Program-made: the position numbers and the translations under genes | Part shown: piece after piece, positions 9,175-51,603 of the stretch | How positions within the stretch are numbered: position 1 is the first letter of the stretch | How the letters are laid out: the number at the start of each line of letters is the position of its first letter | NCBI GenBank assembly: GCA_019745975.1 | Contig: JAIESQ010000067.1 | Coordinates: forward strand, 1 to 64,000 | DNA length: 64,000 bases | Source: Pirellulales bacterium | GTDB taxonomy: Bacteria > Planctomycetota > Planctomycetia > Pirellulales > JAEUIK01 | Direction: 5' to 3' | Notes under the pieces: generated by a model | What the model was told of the DNA's origin: nothing | Database searches by the model: none | What the model saw: the letters and a program-made list of their open reading frames with translations, nothing else

Positions 9175-9972
9175 ATGCTGCTTTACACGTTTTCGCTCTG
9201 GCTGGCGAGCCTGACGCTCGGTTTCGCCAACGAGCCGGCTTCGATCAAAGTGCTGCTGGTCACGGGGTACAACCACCCCGCTCACCCGTGGCGCGACACC
9301 ACGCTGGCGATCCAGGATGTGCTCAAAGTCGATCCGCGGTTTGACGTGCGCGTGGTCGAGGACCCGGCGTTTCTCGAATCGCCGGCGCTGGCGAACTACG
9401 ACGTCGTGCTGTTGAACTTCGCCGACTACCAGCGGCCGAACCCCGGCGCGAACGCGCGCACCAACGTGGCTCAAGTAGTCGAAGCCGGCAAAGGGCTGGT
9501 TGTGCTCCACTTCGCCAGCGGCGCCTGGGACGAAGACGCCGATTACGTCAAAGTGGCGGGCCGCGTCTGGAAAGAAGGGACCAGCGGCCATGACGCCCGC
9601 GGGCCGTTCCGGGTCGAAGTGATGAAAATCGACAATCCGATCGTCAAAGGGATTGAGCCGTACGACACCGACGACGAGTTGTATTATTCGCTGGTCGGCG
9701 ATCAACCGGTCGAAGTGCTGGCCACTGCCAGGTCGAAGCTCACCGGCAAGGACGAGCCGATGGTGTTTACCTTCCCGCTGGGCAAGGGGCGCGTGTTCCA
9801 CACCACGCTGGGGCACGACGCCACGGCGATCCAAATCCCTGGCAGTGCCGAAATCTTACGGCGCGGTTGTGCTTGGGCCGCCGGCCAGGAACCGGCTGCT
9901 CCACCGCCGCCGCCGGCAGCCCCGGCCGCGGCCGCCGCACCTGCGCCCGCCGCGGCGCCATCAGGGTCGTAA
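9175..9972 (+). CDS. ThuA-like domain protein, exported, copy 1
   Basis: 265 aa. It has a signal peptide (MLLYTFSLWLASLTLGFANE) and then a ThuA/glutamine-amidotransferase-like fold: IKVLLVTGYNHPAHPWRDTT, YDVVLLNFADYQRP, GLVVLHFASGAWDE, DELYYSLVG and FPLGKGRVFHTTLGHD. These features match the ThuA-like domains common in planctomycete secreted proteins linked to sugar metabolism. The last 35 residues are a pure Ala/Pro linker-like tail (PPPPPAAPAAAAAPAPAAAP) with no domain beyond it. The next ThuA-like gene starts 13 bp downstream, so the two are probably co-transcribed and may act on related substrates. Confidence 0.88.
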   Translation: MLLYTFSLWLASLTLGFANEPASIKVLLVTGYNHPAHPWRDTTLAIQDVLKVDPRFDVRVVEDPAFLESPALANYDVVLLNFADYQRPNPGANARTNVAQVVEAGKGLVVLHFASGAWDEDADYVKVAGRVWKEGTSGHDARGPFRVEVMKIDNPIVKGIEPYDTDDELYYSLVGDQPVEVLATARSKLTGKDEPMVFTFPLGKGRVFHTTLGHDATAIQIPGSAEILRRGCAWAAGQEPAAPPPPPAAPAAAAAPAPAAAPSGS

Positions 9973-9985
9973 GGAAGTCGAAGCG

Positions 9986-10978
9986 ATGATTCGCAAGCCG
10001 ACTCGCGACCGCTGGCGCACTGTAGCTCTAGAAGCAGTTTCAAAGCAGGTTTTGGGTGCCACTGCTGGCTTGCCCAGCAGTGCAGGGCGCGACACAGCAC
10101 TGCTAGACGAGCTAGCAGTGGCACACGACGCCGGTTTATCGTCAGTTTTGAAACTGCTTCTCATCGTCGCGTTGTTGGCGACGATCGTGGTTGGCTCGAC
10201 GCACGCGGCCGACAAGCCGCAGCGCGTGCTGCTCTTGGCGCAAGGGCCCGACGGCCACCCCGCTGGCACGCACGAGTTCGTGGCCGGCCAGGCGCTCTTG
10301 GCCGAGTGGCTCAAGCCAATCACCGATCTCGAAGTGCAATTGGTTCGCGTCGACGAGCCGTGGCCCAACGGTCCCGAGCTGCTCGCGGCGGCCGACTGCG
10401 TCGTGCTCTACGTCTGCGAAGGGGCCAAGTTCATGCAGGCCGACGAGCGCCGCTGGCAGGCGTTTCAGAACTGCGCCGCGCGCGGCGCGGGGCTCGTCAC
10501 GTTGCACTGGGCCTGCGGTTGCAAGGCACCCGAGCCGATCCCCGGTTTCCTCGTGCTCATGGGCGCTTGCCACGGTGGCCCCGATCGTCGCTACACGGTC
10601 GTCGAAACCGAGCTGCGCCCGGCCGAGCCGCGTCACGCGATCGCCCGAGGGCTGGGTGAGTTTCGCATTCGCGACGAGTTCTATTTCGCGCTGAAGATCG
10701 GTCCCGCGCCGGGCGTGCTGCATCCCGTGCTGACCGCCACGATCGAAGGCCGCCAGGAAACGGTTTGCTGGGCGTGGGAGCGGGCCAAGCAAGGCGGAGC
10801 CACCGGCGGCCGCTCGTTTGGCTTCACGGCGATGCACTTCTACGACAACTGGCATCGCCCCGAGTATCGCCGGCTGGTCACCCAGGGCGTGCTCTGGACG
10901 CTGGGGCGCGACATCCCTGAAAACGGAATTGAGATTCCGGCGGCAGCGAAGTCCGACGACTTATCGGCAGCTCGCTGA
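9986..10978 (+). CDS. ThuA-like domain protein, exported, copy 2, with palindromic element in its N-terminus
   Basis: 330 aa from the ATG at 9986, which has AAGGAAG 8 bp upstream. The mature domain is ThuA-like: RVLLLAQGPDGHPAGTHEF, CVVLYVCEGAKFM, GLVTLHWACGCK, DEFYFALKI and SFGFTAMHFYDNW. The N-terminus is odd. Fourteen residues (MIRKPTRDRWRTVA) are followed by 44 codons of a 132-bp palindromic element (10030-10161), and only then by the hydrophobic signal core LKLLLIVALLATIVVGSTHA. Translation could instead start at TTG 10148 inside the element's right arm (TTG AAA CTG CTT), but no Shine-Dalgarno precedes it. It follows the first ThuA gene by 13 bp and is convergent with the isomerase gene. 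Confidence 0.88.
   Translation: MIRKPTRDRWRTVALEAVSKQVLGATAGLPSSAGRDTALLDELAVAHDAGLSSVLKLLLIVALLATIVVGSTHAADKPQRVLLLAQGPDGHPAGTHEFVAGQALLAEWLKPITDLEVQLVRVDEPWPNGPELLAAADCVVLYVCEGAKFMQADERRWQAFQNCAARGAGLVTLHWACGCKAPEPIPGFLVLMGACHGGPDRRYTVVETELRPAEPRHAIARGLGEFRIRDEFYFALKIGPAPGVLHPVLTATIEGRQETVCWAWERAKQGGATGGRSFGFTAMHFYDNWHRPEYRRLVTQGVLWTLGRDIPENGIEIPAAAKSDDLSAAR
10030..10161. repeat. 132-bp palindromic element, copy 1 (in frame in a signal-peptide region)
   Basis: The terminal inverted repeats AGAAGCAGTTTCAAA (10030-10044) and TTTGAAACTGCTTCT (10147-10161) are perfect 15-mers. Inside are two hairpins: CACTGCTGG-CTTGC-CCAGCAGTG, and CACTGCTAG with loop ACGAG and CTAGCAGTG. Its reverse complement aligns end to end, without gaps, with the copy at 50385-50516. 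The length is 44 codons, with no stop in the host frame. No ORF for a mobilisation protein fits inside, so it would be non-autonomous. Confidence 0.9.
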
Positions 10979-18402: not shown

Positions 18403-18440
18403 GGGCGTGGTCCTCAACGTTTGACTTACAGGAGCGGAAG

Positions 18441-18606
18441 GTGTGCCACTGCTTGCCGGTGGTTGGCGGATCGAATTGCGTCTATAGGCAATCCCGGCAA
18501 GCAGTGCCGTTGCGTCACTCGTTTCAACTTGGCACTGCTTGATCGTCGGCCGCGACCATTTTCGGCAAGGCCGAACCCTCCGGCCGACGACCAAACAGTG
18601 GCACAC
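18441..18606. repeat. 166-bp palindromic element upstream of rtcB, related to the 132-bp family
   Basis: The ends GTGTGCCACTG (18441-18451) and CAGTGGCACAC (18596-18606) are perfect inverted repeats. Inside are two hairpins: TGCCACTGCTTGCCGG pairs with CCGGCAAGCAGTGCC (18494-18508), and GGCACTGCTTGATCG... pairs with the closing CAGTGGCAC through GTCGGCC and GGCCGAC. The core GTGCCACTGCT(T/G)G is shared with the elements at 10030 and 50385, but the GAAGCAGTTTCAAA ends are missing, so this is a subfamily. It sits in the rtcB 5' region. Confidence 0.8.

Positions 18607-50313: not shown

Positions 50314-51603
<1,290 letters not shown>

Follow-up and report, generated by a model that had tools for sequence, protein, structure and literature searches.

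The palindromic element lodged in a ThuA-like gene of the window (the whole 64,000-nt stretch of Pirellulales DNA that was analysed) is in all likelihood a MITE that enters genes in frame at CTAG-like targets, in the manner of the Rickettsia palindromic elements (RPE), and is retained where the peptide that it adds is expendable. The host protein matches Pfam ThuA PF06283 at E 2.2e-16; its ATG at 9986 follows TAAGGAAGTCGAAGCG and its TGA lies at 10976-10978. The features of the window are:

9175 to 9972, + strand: upstream ThuA-like gene, 265 amino acids, on the same strand 13 bp before the host gene (ORF list, sequence)
9973 to 9977, + strand: Shine-Dalgarno (SD)-like GGAAG, 8 nt before the ATG at 9986 (sequence)
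9986 to 10978, + strand: host gene, ThuA-like secreted protein of 330 amino acids including the 44-residue insert (translation, Pfam)
9986 to 10029, + strand: original n-region of the ThuA-like signal peptide, MIRKPTRDRWRTVA(L), obtained by splicing out the element in silico
10030 to 10161, no strand assigned: 132-bp palindromic MITE, adding 44 codons in the host frame
10030 to 10044, + strand: left terminal inverted repeat AGAAGCAGTTTCAAA, consensus CTAGAAGCAGTTTCAAAACC
10056 to 10082, + strand: REP 1, GTGCCACTGCTGGCTTGCCCAGCAGTG, the order-wide REP
10097 to 10124, - strand: REP 2, inverted, GTGCCACTGCTAGCTCGTCTAGCAGTGC
10147 to 10161, - strand: right terminal inverted repeat, outward TTG AAA CTG CTT CTx, that is (M/L)KLLL
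10148 to 10150, + strand: internal TTG, a possible but disfavoured alternative start
10163 to 10207, + strand: IVALLATIVVGSTHA, comprising the leftover hydrophobic core and the cleavage region, after which comes the mature ADKPQRV
50314 to 51603, + strand: host gene of the second copy, MRPLQTFRLDAPRDYATRAKRLSL, element, MKHLLVMGAALATGSWLLSSADEP, with a weak isochorismatase-domain match
50385 to 50516, no strand assigned: second full copy of the element, in a signal peptide and in the opposite orientation relative to its own host gene

The 265-residue ThuA-like gene is probably an operon partner of the host gene. The ends of the element are complementary at 15 of 15 positions, its two inner inverted repeats are CACTGCT hairpins and its 44 codons are stop-free in the host frame; the earlier note on this DNA had all of these points right, coordinates included. 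Folding of the element as RNA yields a single long hairpin at -76.7 kcal/mol, with a z of -8.4 relative to shuffled sequences. The host layout is MIRKPTRDRWRTVAL, element, IVALLATIVVGSTHA, and MIRKPTRDRWRTVAL-IVALLATIVVGSTHA is restored once the element is spliced out. In eleven ThuA orthologues (46-54% identity) the signal peptide is of the usual kind and carries no insert, as in MKFVRLGLIVLLLLAVTQTFGAEA and MFRRCVAVAALAALLLATPGTAAEKK. The copy at 50385-50516, which the earlier note had overlooked while finding that at 10030-10161, has the same anatomy. The window also contains, at 18440-18510, a lone hairpin that is unrelated to the element; it has GTGCCACTGCTTGCCGG...CCGGCAAGCAGTGCC and is probably a REP of another type.

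Searching the genome (6.98 Mb in 204 contigs) with the 15-nt arm at no more than one mismatch returned 149 matches, against 0 for a reversed-pattern control. A model built from 28 copies found about 110 copies, and with flanks of ±3 kb we delimited 117 near-full-length ones, 80 of which measure exactly 132 bp between AGAAGC and GCTTCT and show a mean identity to the consensus of 88%. Conservation at the ends reaches CT/AGAAGC...GCTTCT/AG (slashes mark the insert), which makes the net insert 132 bp exactly for either candidate target, TA or CTAG; judging from the flanks, one or other of these would be duplicated on insertion. CT precedes and AG follows the insert, with a weaker T at -5 and A at +5, a symmetric, palindromic, CTAG-like signal that is similar in signal-peptide and non-coding copies. 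The exact 28-nt REP is kept in 70 and the exact 27-nt REP in 86 of the 117 copies; of the 234 arms, by contrast, no more than 60 are exact, and 80 copies show 61 versions of the 12-nt spacer. This far better preservation of the REP hairpins than of arms and spacers is seen in non-coding copies too; it may reflect gene conversion or a function at the DNA or RNA level.

The 18 nt of the outer ends, TAGAAGCAGTTTCAAAAC, recur without a single difference at both ends of a 924-bp element from another genome of the same order (G158, L214:1499-2422), which has TA at its ends and carries two overlapping ORFs, DUF4096 (IS4/5 transposase) and DDE_Tnp_1. Since its ends are identical to those of this autonomous IS4/5-type element, we regard the 132-bp element, which is transposase-free, has terminal inverted repeats of 15-20 nt and is present in 117 copies, as a non-autonomous MITE. 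In its own genome only a 40-residue remnant is similar to the G158 transposase. The same 18-nt ends also bound MITEs of 102-123 bp with other contents in three further genomes (G037, G091 and G253), and from one genome to another the shared ends appear to have acquired different palindromes. In three G037 MITEs with these ends (L215, L216 and L217), the inner hairpins are GGGGACAGTCCCC. An IS630-type origin, suggested by the TA/CTAG ends, was dropped once the ends had been traced to the IS4/5-type element; a DDE_3 search for such a source matched two genes.

Between these ends lies a pair of RAYT-type REPs, a composition that the earlier note had left unrecognised. About 60% of 58 sampled genomes, almost all belonging to the same order, contain REP 1 with hardly any change, and in the element's own genome three Y1_Tnp (RAYT) genes (L070, L072 and L074) have inverted copies of this REP in their flanks, so that one genome holds both the two inverted REPs and the RAYT gene that characterise REPINs. 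The GTAG or CGTC tag described in PMC3733652 is absent beside the hairpin, the REP reading GGGTGC-CACTGCTGG...CCAGCAGTG. Such a REP pair, common across the order and accompanied by RAYT-type genes with flanking inverted REPs, could mean that the whole element is an ordinary REP/REPIN moved by RAYT, with the outer arms merely part of it. We consider this improbable, as the outer ends occur without REPs on the IS4/5-type element and on other MITEs, and a symmetric CTAG-like target suits a DDE element better; moreover, the arms are mostly missing from the RAYT-flanking REPs, and RAYT ends (Tyr-type) were rejected as their source. The whole composite of ends and REP pair was found once in G024, which belongs to another family of the order. 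A search of Rfam with the element gave nothing near a gathering score, and the exact 28-nt hairpin had no match in IMG/VR and occurred in GTDB contigs at only five loci, from two other planctomycete MAGs, where arms were unrecognisable in the stretches shown.

In order to classify the insertion points, we removed the element in silico from each copy, called coding flanks with a codon model that had been trained on this DNA itself, and used 6000 random positions and 489 CTAG sites of that DNA as backgrounds. With genes called by our own codon model and signal peptides by a simple rule, 31 of the 117 insertion points lay within a signal peptide, downstream of the start codon and upstream of the cleavage region. 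Among random positions the share was 2.5% (about ten times lower, P 6e-23), and among CTAG sites it was 5.1% (odds ratio 6.7, P 2e-10). No coding sequence followed downstream of 58 copies (50%, versus 25% of random positions and 55% of CTAG sites), and 15 copies (13%) lay in mid-gene, versus 63% and 30%, respectively. Per site, signal-peptide copies outnumber even those at intergenic CTAG sites, and tolerance alone may not be the whole story behind their excess. On a stricter list of 22 signal-peptide copies, 18 are among the 69 best-scoring copies and four among the other 48; as these copies are mostly better preserved, decayed non-coding copies may have been under-counted and the enrichment inflated.

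Random spread between genes, with no excess of in-frame or signal-peptide locations, was what the earlier note had named as fatal to its reading, and the distribution observed is of the opposite kind. Its wording that the family is aimed at signal-peptide DNA is nevertheless unsupported as it stands: the enrichment is strong, but intergenic copies make up half of the total and about 13 lie inside other genes, and selection after insertion explains most of the pattern. The approximately 5-fold excess over the CTAG-site background would also be expected if the transposition machinery itself had a preference for signal-peptide DNA or for the 5' ends of genes whose products are exported. Such active targeting appears unlikely, since it fits poorly with the intergenic and mid-gene copies and with a target signal that is alike in signal-peptide and non-coding flanks, and since post-insertion selection together with better preservation of in-frame copies can yield an excess of this kind. 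Even with random insertion followed by selection as the preferred reading, the excess left over CTAG sites may come from better in-frame preservation, from a benefit or from targeting.

Signal peptides that hold a copy (here shown as a slash) include MPIRKRLPALVST/LATTIVLAAPRVSAAE, MSPKPWLAVALTV/IVALLMTPRASVAA and MLVRALRISL/LVVSFCAPVATAEE, as well as the lipobox-containing MRIATPSAFLNSIS/LVIVSLLLVSAC and MNYNARSAAS/LALRWTSIVGAWLSLALATGC; at two further loci (L126 and L180) a copy stands before a type IV pilin-like leader. All ten host proteins tested had Pfam matches: the ThuA-like protein, two ceramidase-like proteins, two 3-keto-disaccharide hydrolases, two HlyD-type proteins, a prolyl oligopeptidase, a gamma-glutamyltranspeptidase and one weak isochorismatase. 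For the prolyl oligopeptidase (an S9-peptidase, L210), the six orthologues with a readable N-terminus all have insert-free, ordinary signal peptides, and in the other orthologues shown no signal peptide could be delimited. The insertion-free orthologues that the earlier note had called for thus exist for both the ThuA-like protein and the S9-peptidase.

The third phase of the element carries stops, and because the target itself then reads TAG, only two phases are possible for CTAG in coding DNA. All four usable combinations of phase and orientation give an open consensus; 1.6-5% of shuffled centres achieve this too, and taken alone it is only suggestive. In the CTA-Gxx phase, used by 18 of the 22 strict signal peptides, the element ends in ...LKLLL; eight of these copies point one way and ten the other, bringing unrelated 44-residue passengers. 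The xCT-AGx phase encodes RSSFKTGIEPTSGATASSSSSAVSNFALLGKPAVAPKPGFETAS in one orientation, and it is this reading that 11 of 13 mid-gene inserts employ. Although the 22 strict copies were picked without requiring an open element, 21 of them have a length of 3n and no stop in the frame used, where the non-coding copies, read in the same way, predict 9.4 (P 1.8e-7). No conserved amino acid sequence was found in the insert, the substitution N/S ratio being 1.98 in signal-peptide copies and 2.20 in non-coding ones. A frame that is kept while N/S is unconstrained indicates that stops and frameshifts have been removed, as for a stretch that is translated but expendable. Judging from this selection on frame, the element would be translated, and the most likely start lies upstream, at ATG 9986 in the ThuA-like gene.

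Long open frames are typical of GC-rich DNA, and four open frames are not rare, so that intergenic repeats lying before genes might seem in frame by chance. This explanation is hardly credible: unless it is an artefact of the gene caller, the preservation of frame refutes it, and the enrichment over matched random and CTAG sites, the insert-free orthologues and the in-frame interruption of conserved genes speak against it. A portable signal-peptide start was also considered, in which TTG-AAA-CTG-CTT-CTA would bring a start codon and (M)KLLL and the upstream ATG would be a relic, much as the earlier note had allowed for a start at the internal TTG. All frame-0 copies, in both orientations, read LKLLL or a near variant straight into the hydrophobic core, the internal TTG has become ATG in the copy at 50385-50516, and upstream starts are weak, though only in a few copies (L161 and L187). 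We disfavour this reading as quite improbable, because an internal start would not require the 3n length and open frame that were found to be preserved from the upstream start; besides, most strict copies have a good ATG with SD and a basic n-region upstream, and no SD precedes the TTG of the first window copy.

About 13 copies interrupt other genes in frame, MnmE and MiaA among them, and 11 of these copies share one orientation and frame that gives a serine-rich linker, GATASSSSSAVS...LLGKPAVAP. In MnmE the insert directly follows DTAGVARQTSPA and the alignment to solved structures breaks there; this element is absent from all nine aligned relatives, eight of which are uninterrupted. The ninth (L273, G015) has a different insert of about 30-40 residues in the same loop, after DTAG, suggesting that this loop repeatedly accepts inserts. 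In MiaA the insert likewise interrupts the alignment to 2qgn. An exact CTAG at the junction is found in none of 13 mid-gene copies, versus 8 of 22 signal-peptide copies and 18 of 73 elsewhere, perhaps through re-tuning of junction residues. A PQQ-type beta-propeller gene of the same genome (L125:2629-4191) has two inserts: its signal peptide holds a partial REP-pair (...PARRMHCWTSQQWHPIVLVFSFVLASTAAAEDW), and its mature portion a complete 132-bp element.

We propose that a transposase acting in trans, presumably of the IS4/5 type, inserts the element into CTAG-like palindromic targets, about TNNCTAGNNA. With 132 bp, or 44 codons, and a consensus open in both CTAG phases and in both orientations, such an insertion would not break the gene. 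Insertion would be random, most copies within genes would be lost by selection and those in signal peptides and protein loops would stay. In signal peptides, the K-L-L-L-(V/A) end would rebuild the start of the hydrophobic core, and the insert would be cleaved off with the signal peptide, presumably by signal peptidase, leaving the mature protein unchanged; in protein loops, one particular frame would supply a flexible linker of Ser, Ala and Pro. Among such tolerated insertions, that in the window's ThuA-like gene would be a signal-peptide case. It is conceivable, if rather doubtful, that the K-L-L-L-V/A end serves as a ready-made n/h boundary, with insertion into signal peptides favoured by targeting or selection and the element acting as a mobile module that remodels export.

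RPE are palindromes of 100-150 bp, present in many copies and inserted in frame in conserved genes (Ogata 2000, 2002, as reviewed in PMC10969869 and PMC2229807). The element resembles them in palindrome size, in its many copies, in its in-frame insertion in conserved genes (MnmE, MiaA and others) whose orthologues lack it, in favouring one peptide frame and, presumably, in that the host enzymes are still made, and the likeness to RPE drawn in the earlier note is borne out by these in-frame copies. It differs from RPE in belonging to a different phylum, in having ends tied to an IS4/5-type element and a REP pair inside, and in that its main coding niche is the signal peptide, which is unreported for RPE in PMC10969869 and PMC2229807. 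The planctomycete element would thus work like RPE, the likeness being one of behaviour.

Translated MITEs are known from enterobacteria (PMC2229807, PMC10969869), and in YPAL/RU-2 of Yersinia the translated frame partly forms a predicted signal peptide, in YPO1552 (PMC2229807). Both there and here a translated MITE contributes to a signal peptide; YPAL/RU-2, however, concerns one conserved locus, read as the birth of a new gene, whereas here some 20-30 signal peptides of established families are involved and frame preservation was tested. REPs are known in planctomycetes (PMC3733652), and with REPIN/RAYT systems (PMC3116915, PMC3733652) the element shares the two inverted REPs and the Y1_Tnp genes flanked by the same REP, but it has extra outer arms, its REPs lack the GTAG/CGTC tag of the two described super-families, and REPs are typically extragenic. 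Its closest likeness in the ends is to the G158 IS4/5-family element, with identical 18-nt terminal repeats, from which it differs in being 132 rather than 924 bp long and without transposase ORFs. Our literature search found no MITE family concentrated in signal peptides.

The element would extend RPE-like, gene-riding palindromes beyond Rickettsia, and its favoured refuge within coding DNA would be the signal peptide, a segment removed from the mature protein. It would also provide a testable rule, that a 3n length, an aim at CTAG and openness in both CTAG coding phases allow entry into genes without breakage. Annotators of such genomes should expect miscalled starts and signal peptides in dozens of exported proteins. 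If the reading as a mobile signal-peptide module were true, the export of many proteins would have been remodelled by it.
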